Assembly: GCF_029688845.1 (NCBI RefSeq)
Contig: NZ_JARUKW010000008.1
Location: forward strand, 62,001-126,000
Length of the DNA stretch: 64,000 nucleotides
Source of the DNA: Natronococcus sp. A-GB1
GTDB taxonomy: Archaea; Halobacteriota; Halobacteria; Halobacteriales; Natrialbaceae
Direction of reading: 5' to 3'
Within the stretch, counting starts at the first letter, position 1, and every line of letters begins with the position of its first letter. The notes below the pieces were generated by a model. The model made no database searches. It saw only the letters and a program-made list of their open reading frames with translations, and was not told the origin of the DNA. Of this stretch, positions 54,323 through 64,000 are shown piece after piece. A program made the position numbers and the translations under genes.

Positions 54323-56872
54323 CTATCGGATTATTTTATCGCGGCCGGAGTCGAACAGCGGCTCGTTCCGAACCGTCGCGTCGTAGCTCTGCCCCTCGCA
54401 CTCGATTCGGACCGACGTGCCGGTCTCCGCGTGCTCGCTCGGCAGGTAGGTGTACGCGATCGACTCGCCGATGCTGTAGCCGTAGTCGCCGGCCTGGACG
54501 TAGCCGACGGCGGTACCGTCTTTGTAGACCGGACGGCCGCCCAGCATCACGTCGCTCGAGTCGTCGAGGGTGAGGCAGGCGACCCGGTTGTCGATCCCCT
54601 CGTCTTTCGCCTCGACGAGTGCCTCCTTCCCGATGAAGTCAGTGTCGAGGTCGACCGCGAACGGGAGCCCCGCTTCGTAGGGGTTGACGTCGGTATCGAC
54701 GTCCGTCCCCCACAGCCGGAACCCCTTCTCGAGGCGCATCGACTCGACCGCGCCGGCGCCCATCGGTCGGACGCCGAGATCCTGGCCTGCTTCCCAGAGG
54801 GTGTCCCACAGCTTCCCCGCGTACTCCGTCGGCGCCCACAGCTCCCAGCCGAGTTCGCCGACGTAGGAGAGTCGCAGGGCGATGACGGGGACGTCGCCGA
54901 CGTAGATCCGCTTCCCGCTGAAGTAGGAGAACTCGTCGTTCGAGAGGTCCGCGTCGGTCGTCCGCTGGAGGAGGAGTCGCGCGTTGGGTCCCCAGAGGCC
55001 GATCGTACTCCTTGCGGACTCCTCGACCGTGACCGACACCGACTCGGGGGCGTGGCGCTCGAGCCAGGAGCCGTGGATCCCCGGCGAGTTCCCCCCGCCG
55101 GTGGTCACCACGTACTCCTCGTCGTCGAGGCGGACGACGGTGAGGTCCGCGAGGACGGTGCCGCCCTCGTTCAGCATCGTCGTGTAGCGAACCTGGCCGA
55201 TCGAGAGGTCCATATCGTTGCTACAGACCCGCTGGAGGAACGCGCCGGCGCCGCTTCCCTCGACCACGATCGAACTGAACGTGGTCATATCGAACATCGA
55301 CACCTTCTCGCGGGTGTGGAGGTGTTCGGCGCCCTCGATCGGGGAGCGGTTGACCCCCTGCCAGCCGTCCTGGTCGGGGATGCGGTCCTCGTACTTCGAG
55401 ACGAGATCGGCGTTGGACTCGTACCACTGGGGGACTTCCCAGCCGCCGCTCTGGTAGAACTCCGCGCCCAGTTCCTGCTGGCGGTGATAGAACGGGCTCG
55501 TTCGGAGCCCGCGGCGGTCGGCGGGCTGCCAGCGGGGTTCGACGATGCTGTAGACCTGCTGATAGCGCATCCCGCCACGGTCCATGAAGTACTGCTTGTT
55601 TCCTGCGTGAGGCTCGAACCGCTCGACGTGGATCCCGCTCGTGTCGACGGGGCCGGAGGGGAGCCGCGGAACGCCGGTTTCCATCCACTCCGCAAGGATC
55701 TTGCCGTAACCGCCCGAGTGGGTCCACCAGATCGCCAGCCCGGTCCAGAGCCCGTCGACCGCCGCGGTTTCACCCAGTACGGGCATCCCGTCCGGCGTGT
55801 AGACGAAGATCCCGTTCTCGGTGGCGTCGAACTCCCTGTCGGCCGTCGCGGGCAGCAGCTCGTCGAACGCCTGCTTCGGCGACTTCTCGCGATCGGGGTG
55901 GGTCGCCTTTGTCCAGTGTTTCTCCGTGAAGCTGTGAACGGAGGCCTGGCTCTCCTCGGAGTTCGACCCCATCTCGTCGGGGTCGACCACGAGCTGCTCG
56001 TGGTTGTACGAGCCGAGCCCGTACCCCTCGCCGTGGGTTCGGAAGTACAGCGAGTTGTCCTGGTCCCGGCCGACCGGGCGGTCCGGCGGCTGGGCCATCG
56101 ACTCGGTGATCTTTCGATCGCCCGGGATCTCGAGCCCGGTGACGGCGTCGTCGGCCCGTTCGTTGCCTCGCAGCTCCTCGAGGGGCTCGGTGACGACGTA
56201 CTGGTGTTCGACCGGGGCGATCGGCAGGTCGACGCCTGCGAGCTGTCCGGTCTGGTAGGCCCAGTTGTTCGTCGCCAGCACGCAGCGGTCACACTCGATG
56301 CGCCCGCGGTCGGTGACGACCGCCTGTACCTCCCCGCCGTCGACTTCGATGTCGGTTACCTCGGTGTGGCCGTGGAACGACGCCGGCGTCGTCTCGAGGT
56401 ACCACTGGAGCGCGTCGGTGCCCGCGACCTGGCCGTCTGTCGGCGAGTAGTAGCCGCCGAGGATCTCCTCCTCGTCGACCAGCGGCAGGTAGTCGGTGAC
56501 CTCCGCGGGCTCGAGTAACTCCGGCTCGGGGAGCCCGTAGGATTTCGCCCACTCGACCCGGCGCTGGAGGAAATCCATCCGTTCCTGCGAGCGAGCGAGC
56601 TCGATTCCACCGGTCTCGTTGTAGACGCCAGCTTCCTTCAGCAGTCGAGTCGTGTAGTGGGCCGTTTTGGTCTGGAGCTTCGACGGCGAGGTCTGGAACA
56701 TGATCCCCGGCGCGTGGGTCGAGGAGCCGCCGGTCACCGGCAGCGGTCCCTTGTCGAGGACGACGACGTCGTCGGCACCGAGTTCGGTCAGGTGGTAAGC
56801 CACGCTGCACCCGACCGCCCCGGCACCGATGATCACCGTCCCGGCTCTCGAGGGCGGGCTGTCTGTGCTCAT
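54323..56872 (-). CDS. FAD-dependent dimethylglycine/sarcosine dehydrogenase-like protein (copy B)
   Basis: This 849-residue protein has an N-terminal FAD domain (VIIGAGAVGCSVAYHLTELG), a His in GGSSTHAPGIMFQ at residue 53 that matches the covalent-FAD His position of the family, and a C-terminal GcvT-like tetrahydrofolate domain (about 450-840). It would demethylate a methylated glycine and pass the one-carbon unit to tetrahydrofolate. ATG 56872 is preceded by a CTTATGATA box about 28 bases upstream. It shares its layout and many segments with copy A at 57667. Confidence 0.87.
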   Translation of the reverse strand: MSTDSPPSRAGTVIIGAGAVGCSVAYHLTELGADDVVVLDKGPLPVTGGSSTHAPGIMFQTSPSKLQTKTAHYTTRLLKEAGVYNETGGIELARSQERMDFLQRRVEWAKSYGLPEPELLEPAEVTDYLPLVDEEEILGGYYSPTDGQVAGTDALQWYLETTPASFHGHTEVTDIEVDGGEVQAVVTDRGRIECDRCVLATNNWAYQTGQLAGVDLPIAPVEHQYVVTEPLEELRGNERADDAVTGLEIPGDRKITESMAQPPDRPVGRDQDNSLYFRTHGEGYGLGSYNHEQLVVDPDEMGSNSEESQASVHSFTEKHWTKATHPDREKSPKQAFDELLPATADREFDATENGIFVYTPDGMPVLGETAAVDGLWTGLAIWWTHSGGYGKILAEWMETGVPRLPSGPVDTSGIHVERFEPHAGNKQYFMDRGGMRYQQVYSIVEPRWQPADRRGLRTSPFYHRQQELGAEFYQSGGWEVPQWYESNADLVSKYEDRIPDQDGWQGVNRSPIEGAEHLHTREKVSMFDMTTFSSIVVEGSGAGAFLQRVCSNDMDLSIGQVRYTTMLNEGGTVLADLTVVRLDDEEYVVTTGGGNSPGIHGSWLERHAPESVSVTVEESARSTIGLWGPNARLLLQRTTDADLSNDEFSYFSGKRIYVGDVPVIALRLSYVGELGWELWAPTEYAGKLWDTLWEAGQDLGVRPMGAGAVESMRLEKGFRLWGTDVDTDVNPYEAGLPFAVDLDTDFIGKEALVEAKDEGIDNRVACLTLDDSSDVMLGGRPVYKDGTAVGYVQAGDYGYSIGESIAYTYLPSEHAETGTSVRIECEGQSYDATVRNEPLFDSGRDKIIR

Positions 56873-57064
56873 ATACCACACCCTGGTACAGTGGGTATCA
56901 TAAGTGCATCGGTGAGAGGGCGGAGGCGGTCTCCGATCCGGGTGTTGCGGGCCGAGTGTCGGCGACGAAGCAACAGTGTTGATCGACACTCCACAAGCAG
57001 TCATCAGCCAGACACGTATTGCGTCCCGAGGTTCGTCGCTCGAGAACGCGTTCGACGACCGTGA

Positions 57065-57358
57065 CTACGGCAGCGAAAACGGAACGTCCGCCTGGATACT
57101 CGCGGCCTTCACTGTGTTATAGAACAACATCGCGATCGTCATCGGACCAACGCCGCCGGGAACGGGGGTTATGGCGTTTGCTCTCGCCTTCGCGCTCTCG
57201 AACTCGACGTCGCCGACGAGTTCGTACCTCTTCTCTGTCTCTGCATCGACGCGGTTGACGCCGACGTCGATCACGACCGCACCGTCGCCGATCATCGAGC
57301 CGTCGATCAGCTCGGGGTAGCTGGTGGCCGCGATCACAATGCCGGGAGCGATATTCAC
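57065..57358 (-). pseudogene. folD: Truncated folD (C-terminal third only)
   Basis: The frame gives 97 residues that match the C-terminal part of Fol[21 protein letters not shown] and [20 protein letters not shown]. Full-length FolD is about 290-300 residues, so roughly 200 N-terminal residues are missing, and two codons upstream the frame ends at TGA. It is therefore probably not functional. It lies between the two dimethylglycine dehydrogenases, where a complete folD would make sense for oxidising the methylene-tetrahydrofolate they make. A hairpin like an IS end lies 150 bases upstream. Confidence 0.8.
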
Positions 57359-57666: not shown

Positions 57667-60234
57667 CTACAGCAGCGGTCCGTCCTGAACCGTCGCCGCG
57701 TAGCGCTCACCCTCGTGGAGAATCTCGAGTTCGGTGCCGGGTTCGGCGTACTCCGGCGGGAGGTAGGCGTAGGCGACGCAGGCGCCGACGGTGTAGCCGT
57801 ACTCGGCGCTGTGGACGTACCCTAACGATTCGTCGCCGTCGAGGACCGGCCGGTTCTTGAAGACGACCGCGTCCTCGTCCTCGAGGGTCAGACAGGCTAC
57901 CTTGTGATCGATCCGCTCGCCCTCGGCGGCCTCGACGACGGCCTCCTTCCCGATGAAGTCCGTCTCGAGGTCGACAGCGAAGCTGAGCCCCGCCTCGTAG
58001 GGGTTGTGCTCGGTGTGGAGGTCCTCCCCCCACAGCCGGAACCCTTTCTCGATGCGCAGGGAGTCGAGCGCGCCGTTGCCGTACGGCCGGAGGTCGTGGT
58101 CCTGGCCGGCCTCCCAGAGGTGCTCCCAGAGCCGTCCGCCGTACTCGCTTGGCGTGTACAGCTCCCAGCCGAGTTCCCCGGCGTAGGAGACTCGAAGCGC
58201 TCGCACCGGGACGTTCTTGACGAACATCTCCTGGGAGGTGAAGTACGGGAAGGCGTCGTCCGAGAGATCGGCTCGGGTTACCTCGCTCAGTACGTCACGG
58301 GCGTTTGGCCCCGTGAGGACGAACGAGGAGAGCTCGGAGGTGACCTCCCGGACCGTGACGTCCTCGGGGGCGTGTTTCTTGACCCAGGCGACGTGGTTCT
58401 GCCCGACCTCCCGGCCCGTGGTGAGCACGAGGTAGCGATCGTCGTCTGTCCGGGTGACGGTGATGTCGGCCCGCACGCCACCCTCCTCGTTGCACATGAG
58501 GGTGTAACGAACCTGTCCGACGTCGATGTCCATGTCGTTGGTACACAGATACTGGAGGAACTCGCCGGCGCCCTGCCCGCTGACCTCCATCTTGTTGAAC
58601 GAGGTCATGTCGTGAATGCCGACCTCGTTGCGGACGTGCAGGGACTCGGCACCCTCGATGGGCGACCAGTACTTCGCCTCCCAGCCGTCTCGTTCGGGGA
58701 CGTCCTCGCCGTAGCGCGCCAGCAGGTCGGCGTTCGAATCGAACCACTGGGCCTCCTCCCAGCCGGCCTCGGCCCACAGCTCGGCGTCGAGCTCCTCGAG
58801 CTTGTGGTAGACCGAGCTGCGGCGGATGTCGCGCTGGTAGTCCGTCCAGGTCCACTTGGGGTGGACGATGTTGTAGACGATCCGGTACTCCTCGCCGCCG
58901 ATGTCGCGGGCGAAGTCCCAGCTGCCCTCGTGGGGCTGGAACCGGTTGACGTTGCAGTGCGAGAGGTCGATCCGGCCGTCGGAGAGCTTCGGTGCGCCGG
59001 TCTCCATCCACTCGGCCAGCGCTCGCCCCGCGCCGCCGGCGTGGGTGACCCAGATGGCCGCGGCGGTCCAGAGCCCGTCGTACTCCTGGACGGGCCCCAT
59101 CACGGGGAGGCCGTTGGGCGACTCCGCGAACATCCCGTTGTACTTGTGCTCGAGTTCCTTCCCCGCGGTCGCGGGCAACAGCTCGTCGCTGGCCTGGCGG
59201 GGTGCCTTGTCCGGACGGTCGGGGTGGGTCGCGTTGTTCAGGTGGTAGTCGGAGAACTCGTGGACCGACCCCTGCTCGCCATCTTCCTCGTTGCCGCCGA
59301 GCTCCTGTGGGTCGGGGACCAGCGGCTCGTGGTTGTACGAGCCGATCCCGTAGGCGTCGCCGTGAGTCCGGAAGTACAGGGCGTTGTCCTGATCCCGGAG
59401 GATCGGCCGATCGGGGTTCGCGAGCAAGCGGTCGGCCTTCTCGCCGGAGACCTCGCGGTAGTTCTCGTAGACCGGGTCCTGGGTAACGTCCTGGTCGCCC
59501 GAGAGCTCATCGAGGGACTCGGTGATGGTGTACTGATGTTCGACCGGCGTCACGGGCAGGTGGACCCCGAGCTGTTCGCCCAGCTGGCGCGCCCAGATGT
59601 TCGTCGCGATCACGACCTCGTTGCACTCGATCTCGCCGTGTTCGGTGACGACGGCCTGTACCTCGCCGTCCTCGACCGCGACGTCTTCGGTCCGGGTGTG
59701 TGGGACGAACTTCGCGCCCCGATCCATAGAGGCTCTCGCCAGCGCGGCGCAGGCCTTGACGCCCGACACCTGGCCGTCGGTCGGCGAGTAGTAGCCGCCC
59801 TGGATAACGTCGCTGTCGACCAGGGGGAGTTTCTCCTCGACCTCCTCTGGCGAGAGGAGCTGCGGGTCCGGAACGCCCCAGGCGGTGCCGTGTTCGACCC
59901 GGCGCTGGAGGAAGTCCATCCGCTCGTCGGTCCGGGCGACCTCGATCCCGCCCGTTTCGCTGTAGAGCTGGTTTCCGTCCTCGTCCTCGAGCTCCGAGTA
60001 CAGCTTGCGGCTGTAGTTCGCGAACTTGGTCAGCACCTTGTCCTCGGCGGTCTGGAACATGATCCCCGGCGCGTGGCTCGAGGAGCCGCCCGTGGTCGGG
60101 AGCGGCCCCTGGTCGACGACGACGACGTCCTCGCGCCCGAACTCGGTCAGGTGGTAGGCCGTGCTGCAGCCGACGATTCCGGCCCCGACGACGACGGTGT
60201 CGGCCTCGGCCGGCAGACTGTCGTGTGTATTCAT
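57667..60234 (-). CDS. FAD-dependent dimethylglycine/sarcosine dehydrogenase-like protein (copy A)
   Basis: This 855-residue protein has the FAD motif VVVGAGIVGCSTAYHLTEFG, His54 in GGSSSHAPGIMF at the expected covalent-FAD position, and a C-terminal GcvT-like domain. It is a paralogue of copy B. One of the two probably takes dimethylglycine and the other sarcosine, but I cannot say which. A CTATATTTG box about 31 bases upstream and GAGGTGA near the ATG mark the start at 60234. It diverges from the putative regulator at 60552. Confidence 0.88.
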   Translation of the reverse strand: MNTHDSLPAEADTVVVGAGIVGCSTAYHLTEFGREDVVVVDQGPLPTTGGSSSHAPGIMFQTAEDKVLTKFANYSRKLYSELEDEDGNQLYSETGGIEVARTDERMDFLQRRVEHGTAWGVPDPQLLSPEEVEEKLPLVDSDVIQGGYYSPTDGQVSGVKACAALARASMDRGAKFVPHTRTEDVAVEDGEVQAVVTEHGEIECNEVVIATNIWARQLGEQLGVHLPVTPVEHQYTITESLDELSGDQDVTQDPVYENYREVSGEKADRLLANPDRPILRDQDNALYFRTHGDAYGIGSYNHEPLVPDPQELGGNEEDGEQGSVHEFSDYHLNNATHPDRPDKAPRQASDELLPATAGKELEHKYNGMFAESPNGLPVMGPVQEYDGLWTAAAIWVTHAGGAGRALAEWMETGAPKLSDGRIDLSHCNVNRFQPHEGSWDFARDIGGEEYRIVYNIVHPKWTWTDYQRDIRRSSVYHKLEELDAELWAEAGWEEAQWFDSNADLLARYGEDVPERDGWEAKYWSPIEGAESLHVRNEVGIHDMTSFNKMEVSGQGAGEFLQYLCTNDMDIDVGQVRYTLMCNEEGGVRADITVTRTDDDRYLVLTTGREVGQNHVAWVKKHAPEDVTVREVTSELSSFVLTGPNARDVLSEVTRADLSDDAFPYFTSQEMFVKNVPVRALRVSYAGELGWELYTPSEYGGRLWEHLWEAGQDHDLRPYGNGALDSLRIEKGFRLWGEDLHTEHNPYEAGLSFAVDLETDFIGKEAVVEAAEGERIDHKVACLTLEDEDAVVFKNRPVLDGDESLGYVHSAEYGYTVGACVAYAYLPPEYAEPGTELEILHEGERYAATVQDGPLL

Positions 60235-60551
60235 TACTCACCTCGATATGCTGGTGGGGATCAAATATAGCTGTCGCCGTCCCGGATCGTCCAACGAACG
60301 ATACGAAAACTGAGAGATAGTGTTTCGGACGACCCGGCAGTCCCGAGGACCGCACGATGGCGTCGTCGACCGACGACGTTCCGTCGAAGACCGCCAAGGG
60401 CCCGATCGAACGGCCCGTCGGATCCGGTTCGCTCGCTCGCGGATTCTCGGTTCTCACGTCCGCTTCCCGGAACTCAGCCTCGAGCTATATGAAGGGACGG
60501 AGTATTCCCCACTCAGTATTACCCCGACCCGAGTTCAATCGTAGACAAATC
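60235..60551. other. Divergent regulatory region between copy A and the putative regulator
   Basis: These 317 bases hold the TATA-like box for copy A (minus strand, 60261-60270). On the plus side, AGCTATATGAAGG near 60482 and AGTATTACCCCG near 60515 could serve the gene at 60552. No coding frame looks real. Confidence 0.5.
60261..60270 (-). promoter_or_regulatory. TATA-like promoter of dehydrogenase copy A
   Basis: On the minus strand this reads CTATATTTGA, about 31 bases before ATG 60234, with GAGGTGA immediately before the ATG. Confidence 0.5.
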
Positions 60552-61775
60552 ATGAGGATCGGGGACTTGGTTGACACTCTCTCGCAAATAGTAGACCGGT
60601 ACGAGGCGGACGGCGGCGTGATCCGACAGGTCGACGCGACGATCTCCGGACGGGCGGACGCGACCGGGCCGAGCGTTTCGGTCGACGCCGTCGCTCCGCT
60701 GTGTAACGGAACGGCGTCCGAATCGGACTCCAGCACGGCTCCCGAAACGGCACGCCTGGACGACAACGGGGGACTCCACCTCGAGTTCTCCCGCTCGGCG
60801 CTGCCCGCGATAGCGGAGTACGCGCCCGACGGCGTCGTCGTGACGAGGGACGACGCCCGCGTGACCGCCGACGGCGACGTCGTCGTGACGTTCGCGATCA
60901 GCTTTGAGGAGGAGGCGACGTCGGCTCGAGCCGAGACGCCGTCGGGTTCGGCGGCCGAATCGGACGCCGGGACGGAACCGAACGAAACCGACGGACCGCT
61001 CGAGACGGGCAAAGCTCACGACGAGGACGGGACCGATCCGGTATCGACGGAGTCCCGACTCGGGAGCGAATCCGAAACGGAGTCCGCGATCGACTCCGAA
61101 CTCTCGCGGGCCCTCGAGGACGCGCGCAACGAGGAGTTGCCGCCGTACGACGACGCCGAGTACCTGCAGTGTCTGTACGAGTCCTTCGAGACGTTCGCAG
61201 CGATGGCCGACGTCCTCGAGATGGACGTCGCCGCCGAGACGGTCCGTCGGTACATGATCGACGCCGGCGTCCACGACCCCGTCTCCTACGACGTGGTCGA
61301 CGCCGAGGAGACCGAAGAGCGAACGGAACCGGCCGACGAACCGGACGATCCGTCCGCCACGGAAGGACTCAATGCCGCCACGACCGACGCGGAGCCAGAG
61401 CCGGAGTCGGCCCCCGCTCGTCCCGACGGGACCGCAGATCCGGTCGAGGATGTCCCGGAGCGGCCACTCGTCGCGGACGGGGTCGGCCTCCCGGACGACG
61501 TCGAGGTCGAGCGGCTGATCGACGCAGTCGAGTCGTCGATGACGCTGTACGACGTCTCTCGAGCGCTCGGCCTCGAGCGCGACCGGACCCGGGAGCTGCT
61601 CGAGAGACTCGACCTAATCGATCTCGTGGTTAGGCGCGTCTACGCCTCGAGAACGCCGGAAGAGGGACCGTCGCGGGAGGAGATCGCCGAGCGGATCCGC
61701 GGCAGCGACCAGCACCGATCCGAGCGTCACGCCGGGGACACCGGCTCCGGCGATCGGCAGTCGGCCGTCCCGTAG
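60552..61775 (+). CDS. Putative transcriptional regulator with two helix-turn-helix-like regions
   Basis: This 407-residue acidic protein starts MRIGDLVDTLSQIVDRYEAD. Residues about 1-120 look like one compact domain. Two helix-turn-helix-like regions follow, at about 205-245 (ESFETFAAMADVLEMDVAAE then TVRRYMIDAG) and about 318-365 (VERLIDAVESSMTLYDVSRA then LGLERDRTRELLERLDL), joined by long Asp/Glu linkers. It is divergent from dehydrogenase copy A and lies upstream of the Rieske genes, so it is a good candidate to regulate methylated-glycine use. DNA binding is inferred from pattern alone. Confidence 0.62.
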   Translation: MRIGDLVDTLSQIVDRYEADGGVIRQVDATISGRADATGPSVSVDAVAPLCNGTASESDSSTAPETARLDDNGGLHLEFSRSALPAIAEYAPDGVVVTRDDARVTADGDVVVTFAISFEEEATSARAETPSGSAAESDAGTEPNETDGPLETGKAHDEDGTDPVSTESRLGSESETESAIDSELSRALEDARNEELPPYDDAEYLQCLYESFETFAAMADVLEMDVAAETVRRYMIDAGVHDPVSYDVVDAEETEERTEPADEPDDPSATEGLNAATTDAEPEPESAPARPDGTADPVEDVPERPLVADGVGLPDDVEVERLIDAVESSMTLYDVSRALGLERDRTRELLERLDLIDLVVRRVYASRTPEEGPSREEIAERIRGSDQHRSERHAGDTGSGDRQSAVP

Positions 61776-61923: not shown

Positions 61924-61947
61924 GTATATATTGGTGTTCAATAACAC
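61924..61947 (+). promoter_or_regulatory. TATA box and GTGTT-N4-AACAC repeat before the first Rieske gene
   Basis: GTATATA (61924-61930) lies 65 bases before ATG 61989. Immediately after it, GTGTT (61934-61938) and AACAC (61943-61947) form an inverted repeat with spacer CAAT. A similar repeat lies upstream of glyA. This is the best candidate operator in the locus. Confidence 0.5.
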
Positions 61948-61988: not shown

Positions 61989-63068
61989 ATGACACAGTGG
62001 GACGACTCACGAGCCGCCGCGGTGAGTGAGAACGTTACGGACGAGTCGAGCGCGCCGTCGGCGAATCAGCTCGCCGACCCCGATGCATTCGAGGCGGAGA
62101 AGGCGACGGTTTTCGGCGAGTACTGGGTGTATGCCGGCCACGCGAACAGCATCGCCGAACCGGGGCAGTTCTTCACCCGAACCGTCGGCGACCGACAGCT
62201 GATCGTCGTCCGCGGCCACGACGGCGAGCTCAAAGCGTTCGACAACGTCTGTGCCCACCGCGGCTCCAAGATGGTCGAGGACACGCCGATGACCGACCCC
62301 GGCGGCGGCAACCGGATCCAGTGTCCCTACCACCTCTGGACGTACGATCTCGACGGCGAGCTCCGCAGTACGCCCAAGAGTTTCGAGGACGCGAGCCTGA
62401 ACCCCGATCTCGAGAACGAAGACGTCCAGGAGTTCGACTGCGAGACCAACGGCCTGAACGACGTCCACGTCGACAGCGTCGGCCCGCTGCTATTCGTGAA
62501 CCTGAGCGACGAGCCGCCGGCGCTGTCCGAGCAGGTCGGCGCACTGGAGGAGCGACTCGAGTCACTGTCCCTCGAGGCGTCCGACCACGAGCGTCGAGTC
62601 GTCGAGGAGGTCGAGTGCAACTGGAAGACGGTCGCCGGCAGCCTCCTGGACGCGGTCGGCCGTCGGGATCGGCTTCCGGGCGCCGAGTCCGAGGAGACCA
62701 ACCTCGAAACCGACGACCACTGCTGGTCGCTCAGTTCGACCGACGACGATGAGACAGCACAGGTTCACTACTGCTGGCCGAACGTCACGATCGAGGTGGA
62801 CGGCGACGACGGGTACGCGACGTGTATCGTCGACCCGGTCGACGCCGGCCGCTGTCAGCTGATCGTAGACTACTATGTTCGGGACGGCGACGGCACCGAA
62901 GCGGAACGGGAGTTCGTCCGCACGAGCCGCCAGCGTCGGGCCGAAGCGATCGAACTGGCCGAACGCCGCCGCGACACGGACGGAGTCAGCACCCTCGAGC
63001 GGACGCTCGGACCGAACGAACACACCGTCGACGACCTCCACGGGCTCGCACAGGAGTCCGATTCGTAA
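61989..63068 (+). CDS. Rieske [2Fe-2S] protein related to ring-hydroxylating/betaine oxygenases, catalytic iron site degenerate
   Basis: This 359-residue protein has a complete Rieske motif: Cys88-x-His90 (NVCAHRGSKMV) and Cys112-x2-His115 (QCPYHLWTYDLDG). It then continues into the alpha-subunit catalytic region with CNWKTVAGSLLDAVGRRDRL at about 210-229. In family members this stretch reads like NWK-x4-EN-x2-E-x-YH-x4-H and supplies the mononuclear iron ligands; here no His is present until residue 244. It is therefore probably not a working oxygenase by the usual mechanism. It is seven bases before the next gene, which is probably cotranscribed. Confidence 0.82.
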   Translation: MTQWDDSRAAAVSENVTDESSAPSANQLADPDAFEAEKATVFGEYWVYAGHANSIAEPGQFFTRTVGDRQLIVVRGHDGELKAFDNVCAHRGSKMVEDTPMTDPGGGNRIQCPYHLWTYDLDGELRSTPKSFEDASLNPDLENEDVQEFDCETNGLNDVHVDSVGPLLFVNLSDEPPALSEQVGALEERLESLSLEASDHERRVVEEVECNWKTVAGSLLDAVGRRDRLPGAESEETNLETDDHCWSLSSTDDDETAQVHYCWPNVTIEVDGDDGYATCIVDPVDAGRCQLIVDYYVRDGDGTEAEREFVRTSRQRRAEAIELAERRRDTDGVSTLERTLGPNEHTVDDLHGLAQESDS

Positions 63069-63075
63069 TCGATAC

Positions 63076-63456
63076 ATGAGCACACAACAGCAACACCCAA
63101 CGTATGCCGCGAGTTGTCCCGACTGCGACGTCGATCTGCACAGCGACGACCCGAACGAGATCGTCGAGTTCTACCGCCGCCACTCGAGCGTCACGGGCCA
63201 CGACGTGGAGTTTACCCGAATCGGACCCGACCTCGTGGACGCGGTGACCGAGGACGACCTCAAGGAGGTCTACACGCTCAAAGACGTCGTGACCCAGCTC
63301 GAGGCGGAGTACGAGAACGGGGCTCCGATCGGCGCCGTTGCAGCGGCGATGAGCGAGCAGGGACTGTCGATCGGCGAGACGCTCGAGAAGATCCACGAGA
63401 TCCGAATGGGCGGCGGACTGTACGAACCGCAAGACGACCACCTACGCGCGTTCTGA
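63076..63456 (+). CDS. Zinc-finger plus winged-helix-like small protein
   Basis: This 126-residue protein has an N-terminal C2H2-like pattern: Cys14-x2-Cys17 (SCPDCDVDL) with His36 and His42 in YRRHSSVTGHDVEF. The C-terminal half, with LEAEYENGAPIGAVAAAMSE and EIRMGGGLYEPQDDHLRAF, resembles the winged-helix domain at the end of archaeal MCM helicases. It lies directly after the degenerate Rieske gene. It could be a DNA-binding regulator or a metal-dependent partner of the Rieske proteins. Confidence 0.72.
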   Translation: MSTQQQHPTYAASCPDCDVDLHSDDPNEIVEFYRRHSSVTGHDVEFTRIGPDLVDAVTEDDLKEVYTLKDVVTQLEAEYENGAPIGAVAAAMSEQGLSIGETLEKIHEIRMGGGLYEPQDDHLRAF

Positions 63457-63793: not shown

Positions 63794-64000
63794 ATGACAC
63801 AGTGGGAGCACGCTCAGACGAAGCCAGTTAGCCCGGATATCACGGAGAAGTCGAACGCGCTGCCGGCGAAGTACTTCACGGAGCCCGAGACCTTCGAGAT
63901 GGAGAAGGACAAGATCTTCGGGCGGTACTGGGTGTATGCCGGCCACGCCAGCTGTATCACCGAGCCGGGACAGTTCTTCACCCGGAACGTCGGCGGTCGC
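63794..64000 (+). CDS. Second Rieske oxygenase-like protein, N-terminus only (runs off window)
   Basis: The 69 visible residues start MTQWEHAQTKPVSPDITEKS and include IFGRYWVYAGHASCITEPGQ, closely parallel to the first Rieske protein (MTQWDDSRAAAVSENVTDES and WVYAGHANSIAEPGQFFTRT). This is the region just before the Rieske motif. It is probably the catalytic paralogue of the degenerate protein at 61989, but its iron ligands lie beyond the window. It has its own AT-rich promoter. Confidence 0.8.
   Translation, partial: MTQWEHAQTKPVSPDITEKSNALPAKYFTEPETFEMEKDKIFGRYWVYAGHASCITEPGQFFTRNVGGR

Follow-up and report, generated by a model that had tools for sequence, protein, structure and literature searches.

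The closest described systems to the gene pair reported here are CntA and GbcA, the quaternary-ammonium Rieske oxygenases of group V. CntA from Acinetobacter (PDB 6Y8J) is an a3 ring in which the Rieske cluster and the mononuclear iron lie 44 Å apart within a chain and 12 Å apart across to the neighbouring chain, and electrons pass to that neighbour through the essential glutamate E205 (PMC7948474). Residue Y203 (a substrate contact), the bridging glutamate E205 and a Cys pair by the iron have been described (PMC7948474, PMC10952381). Because electrons cross between chains, the two metal sites could in principle be carried by different polypeptides, and the literature searched contained only two such cases. 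The 7-methylxanthine demethylase NdmC/NdmD/NdmE of Pseudomonas putida CBB5 includes an oxygenase subunit, NdmC, that has no cluster and is fed by the Rieske domain of a separate protein, NdmD; this domain is fused to a reductase, and a GST-like subunit is also needed (PMC4408171). Chlorophyllide a oxygenase of Micromonas, MpCAO, has been found in two polypeptide chains (Kunugi 2013, as cited in PMC9615114). In addition, NdmA and NdmB form an a3a'3 hetero-oligomer with two paralogous alpha subunits per assembly, both of which are complete oxygenases (PMC12445004).

In this study, we describe two adjacent paralogues of a haloarchaeon, A and B, one of which retains the ligands of the Rieske cluster and the other those of the iron. 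On the basis of the reciprocal ligand loss, its conservation, the tree, the selection pattern and the fold, we consider it likely that the two paralogues are obligate partners, the subunits of a single heteromeric Rieske oxygenase of the CntA/GbcA type.

Results

Complementary metal sites in adjacent paralogues

The window, which is the whole stretch of DNA that was analysed (64,000 nucleotides), corresponds to bases 62001-126000 on contig 56 in a Natronococcus genome of 4.5 Mb that is 99.96% complete. Gene B is cut by the window end, and the full gene was read from the genome beyond it (G000:C56:126804). The features of the pair are as follows.

61925..61932, + strand: TATA-box-like TATATATT, about 60 bases before the ATG of A; candidate, read by sequence inspection
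61989..63068, + strand: gene A, Rieske-only oxygenase paralogue, open reading frame of 359 aa
62124..62378, + strand: Rieske [2Fe-2S] domain of A, residues 46-130, with C88/H90/C112/H115 (profile and ligand table)
62619..62681, + strand: lost mononuclear-iron site of A, residues 211-231, NWKTVAGSLLDAVGRRDRLPG; both His ligands absent and the third-ligand Asp replaced by Ala in the alignment with relatives
63076..63456, + strand: MID, 126-aa companion of A, with a CPDC...H...GH zinc-finger-like N-terminus and an MCM C-terminal-like winged helix
63730..63738, + strand: TATA-box-like TATATAAAT, about 60 bases before the ATG of B; candidate, read by sequence inspection
63794..64000, continuing to contig base 126804, + strand: gene B, 336 aa, iron site intact and Rieske ligands lost

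In profile searches, the Rieske domain of gene A is complete (PF00355, 68 bits), and its four ligands sit in CAHRG and CPYH, a complete motif, as the original prediction had read it. The catalytic domain PF00848 is matched only by a fragment of A, at 22 bits, which is below the 24.9-bit cut-off. After NWK, the protein continues with TVAGSLLDAVGRRDRLPG, and the iron motif of its relatives, NYSECDHCQANHQDW, is replaced with a net change of -4 residues. The histidines of A occur at positions 51, 77, 90, 115, 160, 200, 244, 260, 345 and 351; the predicted absence of His between residues 201 and 243 is thereby confirmed, and the alignment with relatives agrees that the two-His iron motif is missing after NWK. 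Alternative iron ligands in A were considered and rejected. No other conserved two-His set was found in the catalytic half of A when the A proteins of six reciprocal pairs were aligned with relatives; H200 and H260 are the sole catalytic-half histidines common to all six, and intact relatives have both as well. Of these six proteins, four no longer have the third-ligand Asp, and the two that keep it have no His ligand at all. The bridging-glutamate column of A is still acidic (D/E); this acid and the Asp kept in two proteins count against the explanation that we favour.

Gene B carries the reciprocal loss. It matches PF00848 at 71 bits, and its PF00355 score is below the cut-off: the first Rieske motif has changed from CAHRG to SARTG, and approximately 45 residues, including CPYH, are deleted. 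At the position where A lost its iron motif, B carries NYSECDHCQANHQDW, and its iron site is complete (N177, Y178, E180, H183, H188 and D295). In the alignment, N177/Y178/E180/C181/H183/C184/H188/D295 of B correspond to N202/Y203/E205/C206/H208/C209/H213/D323 of CntA, so that B also has the CxxC pair by the iron (in ECDHC) and, in Y178, the aromatic equivalent of Y203. The original prediction correctly placed A just upstream of a second related protein and suggested a catalytic/non-catalytic pair, provided that this second protein was intact. Read past base 64000, B is not intact, and the pair is instead complementary, with neither chain complete. The proposed role of A as an electron-transfer or scaffold subunit paired with the neighbouring paralogue is retained; the intact partner is not. 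A Rieske CxH...CxxH motif in one chain, by which an alpha subunit is defined, is present in A (CHCH) and absent from B, and the 2-His-1-carboxylate set with its bridging acid in one chain is present in B (E180/H183/H188/D295) and absent from A. Only the pair as a whole, and neither chain alone, contains both sets.

The best PDB sequence match of A and of B is CntA, which is also the best Foldseek match of both structure models (E about 1e-19, TM about 0.65-0.72). These are AlphaFold2 models of monomers only and of moderate quality (mean pLDDT 71.3 for A and 68.9 for B), and they show only that an alpha-subunit fold is retained in both chains. The regions modelled worst, approximately 227-234 in A and 179-199 in B, are those of the missing parts. 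By sequence and fold, A and B are of the group V type. Their best NCBIfam match is the GbcA equivalog NF058607, at 114 bits for A and 78 bits for B, far under its 670-bit cut-off. The NdmCDE arrangement of a Rieske-reductase fusion and a GST-like subunit was not found: A is without a reductase domain, and no GST-like gene was recognised among the neighbours examined.

Distribution among haloarchaea

Surveys of 60 relatives and of 392 genomes of the order, with named loci, distinguished three states. A single intact gene occurs in Haloferax, Haloarcula, Natrialba, Halarchaeum and others. An intact A accompanied by a cluster-less B is found in Halegenticoccus, Halogranum, Haladaptatus, Natronorubrum thiooxidans, Natronolimnohabitans, Natrinema versiforme, Halostagnicola and G004, a member of the window's own genus. 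A Rieske-only A with an iron-only B occurs in six genomes of Natronococcus and close kin (the window's genome, N. amylolyticus, N. sp. A-GB7, N. jeotgali, the MAG CSSed10_265 and G007). In all six of these reciprocal pairs, A has CHCH without the two His, B has no cluster and a complete N-E-H-H-D set, and the frames are open; the two sites therefore stand on two chains, as in a split Rieske oxygenase, in 6/6 cases. In each B examined, across several families, the Rieske ligands are absent and the iron motif is present. B was never found without A: each of the 18 genomes that carry it has an A as well (16 from the 392-genome survey, plus G002 and G005 among the 60 relatives), and the gene order A-MID-B is conserved.

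These distributions bear on the possibility that the motifs were lost through an assembly or sequencing error or a wrong reading frame. Although Haloterrigena salina does have frame breaks in these genes, the lesions of the reciprocal pairs, with open frames, are repeated in six separate assemblies, and the lesion of B is common to every B examined. We consider that the conservation of the lesions refutes this explanation, the probability of which is practically negligible; the presence of the same pair in other haloarchaeal genomes, which the original prediction had proposed to look for, is established as well.

Two assemblies of the surveys are unusual in other respects. In Haloterrigena salina JCM 13891, contig_57 (L096, L104, L105) has frame breaks in copies of A, B and MID and an insertion in one copy of A, reflecting either sequencing errors or a decaying cluster. 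In G035, two near-identical intact A-MID units lie approximately 53 kb apart (C3:289604-290734 and 342552-343682), with a separate copy of B in the interval, and another contig carries a C-terminal fragment of the gene (C1:22966-23340).

Within the window's genome, B is the sole PF00848 match, a search with the A protein matches A and B only, and no intact oxygenase was found elsewhere by either search. A and B are the only alpha-subunit-type oxygenase proteins of this genome. Four other Rieske-domain proteins, as read from their sequences, are a NirD-like ferredoxin, a flavoprotein oxidoreductase and two unrelated proteins. They could in principle feed B, and this also counts against the favoured explanation.

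Phylogeny and selection

In the tree, A and B together form one clade (support 100/100), B forms one clade (96/99), and the six iron-less A proteins form one clade (100/100) on a long branch. Where A is intact, its catalytic half and that of the B in its own genome are 89-98% identical and often closer to each other than to their counterparts in other species, and in the genomes with reciprocal pairs they are 50-51% identical. The likeness within genomes suggests gene conversion between the two catalytic halves. At the loci L069, L070, L072, L075 and L117-L123, the catalytic halves are up to 98% identical and the Rieske halves approximately 57%, as if conversion had acted on one half only.

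Pairwise Nei-Gojobori counts by region gave dN/dS values of 0.04-0.25 for the Rieske domain of A and 0.02-0.12 for the catalytic domain of B, both of which are under strong constraint. For the catalytic half of A, the values are 0.25-0.73, compared with 0.04-0.06 in intact A. This half keeps 28 of 115 family-invariant columns, including CNWK, WPN, DGY and DYY, and 37 of the 115 are lost in all six A proteins, both iron histidines among them. Because of the dN/dS values and the invariant columns that are kept, we regard the catalytic half of A as relaxed, yet constrained and not neutral.

It could be argued that A is a decaying duplicate, a pseudogene in progress, and that B partners another Rieske protein of the cell. 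The catalytic half of A diverges quickly (dN 0.06-0.40), the dN/dS of 0.73 in one pair has an interval of 0.48-1.11 that reaches 1, and four other Rieske-domain proteins are encoded in the genome. However, the low dN/dS of the Rieske half is at odds with decay, and the frames are open in six genomes, whereas neutral simulation leaves the catalytic half stop-free in only 2-4% of cases at a divergence of 0.35-0.5. The A-MID-B order is also kept, and B is found only where A is. We consider decay of A very unlikely.

A second alternative, prompted by the far stronger conservation of the Rieske half of A than of its catalytic half, is that A acts like a Rieske ferredoxin and docks from outside onto a bare catalytic B3 ring, much as NdmC is fed by NdmD. 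A ferredoxin would have no need of the full alpha-subunit length, the CNWK, WPN and DYY motifs and the residual purifying selection that A has kept, and the Rieske half of B is truncated but not lost. This alternative appears unlikely. In the mixed ring that we favour, the best-conserved halves, the Rieske half of A and the catalytic half of B, would be those that face each other head to tail.

Genomic neighbourhood

Two further genes of the window are of interest with regard to the substrate.

57667..60234, - strand: DMGDH2, dimethylglycine/sarcosine dehydrogenase-like, DAO + FAO_M + GCV_T
54323..57004, - strand: DMGDH1, same architecture, DAO + FAO_M + GCV_T

Such dehydrogenase genes adjoin most loci, including those of most intact homologues. 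On the minus strand between the two (57065-57358), a FolD-like methylene-THF dehydrogenase/cyclohydrolase is represented by its C-terminal third only (97 of about 297 residues), either as a remnant or as a frame-broken gene. Almost all pair loci have, upstream of A and here at 60417-61775 on the plus strand, a 450-aa protein with no Pfam or NCBIfam match, the C-terminal part of which looks like a repeated helix-turn-helix; weaker matches to it lie close to many single intact genes, in different positions. In nearly every haloarchaeal locus seen, MID lies directly 3' of A or of the single intact gene. It has no match to a Pfam family, its C-terminus resembles the winged helix that ends archaeal MCM (NF040949, E 0.001), and it is possibly a regulator of the operon. 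The TATA-box-like sequence before B suggests that B probably has its own promoter. No dedicated reductase was found near the A/B pair, a further point against the favoured explanation, and the two small FAD_binding_6 proteins of the genome are both on other contigs.

Discussion

According to the distances in CntA, a ring needs one cluster chain beside one iron chain, and the cluster of A would reduce the iron of B only within a ring that contains both chains. We infer from this architecture the formation of a complex, its stoichiometry and its electron path. A would supply the [2Fe-2S] cluster, which would reduce the iron of B across the subunit interface; besides this iron, B would provide the substrate pocket and, in E180, the bridging glutamate. 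The dead catalytic half of A and the truncated Rieske half of B would form the scaffold. Of the possible rings, A2B and AB2 would each contain a single productive A-to-B interface, and A3 and B3 homotrimers would be inactive. In the six relatives, Natronococcus and its kin, A and B are very probably functional only as a mixed complex, judging from their ligands. The two neighbouring dehydrogenase-like genes, which also lie by most intact homologues, point, with moderate confidence, to glycine betaine or a similar methylated amine as the substrate. The reaction would be its oxidative N-demethylation, and the product would feed the dimethylglycine/sarcosine dehydrogenase-like enzymes.

The clades of the tree point to one duplication, after which B lost its cluster once and A, later, its iron site once. 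Since nearly all loci have MID behind A or behind the single intact gene, B would have been added by this duplication behind an older A-MID unit. The iron site of A would have been lost in a single lineage, Natronococcus and close kin, and this loss would have locked A and B together.

The pair resembles CntA and GbcA in fold, ligand spacing, the bridging Glu, the Cys pair by the iron, the Tyr equivalent to Y203 (in B) and the cross-interface catalytic logic; however, both sites are on one chain in CntA, whereas they are divided between two paralogues here. As proposed for B, NdmC takes its cluster from another polypeptide and acts in N-demethylation, but the proposed donor for B is a paralogous oxygenase subunit and not a reductase fusion with a GST-like partner. 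NdmA/NdmB likewise combines two paralogous alpha subunits, although, unlike A and B, each of these is complete. MpCAO is, like A/B, a Rieske oxygenase in two chains, and its Rieske and iron motifs are reportedly divided between them. It is eukaryotic and acts on chlorophyll, whereas A and B are archaeal, of the quaternary-amine type, encoded by adjacent genes and accompanied by living intermediates. Since NdmC/NdmD and MpCAO are already split, the principle of division is not new. What is new is the archaeal quaternary-amine-type setting, the adjacent paralogues with reciprocal loss and the surviving intermediates. The literature searched, with subscription papers mostly outside it and therefore weak as evidence, held no direct report of the A/B pair. 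A/B is apparently a third, independent case of a split Rieske oxygenase.

We lean towards the view that a homotrimeric ring became an obligate hetero-ring by the stepwise reciprocal loss of metal sites, probably with one working interface per ring, and that all of the steps, from the ancestral single intact gene through an intact A with a cluster-less B to the reciprocal pair, survive in living haloarchaea. The pair opens two questions to testing: whether a neutral ratchet or adaptive asymmetry turns a homo-oligomer into an obligate hetero-oligomer, and whether a ring can work with a single productive interface. It would also serve as a natural single-site enzyme in which electron transfer from one cluster to one iron could be measured.
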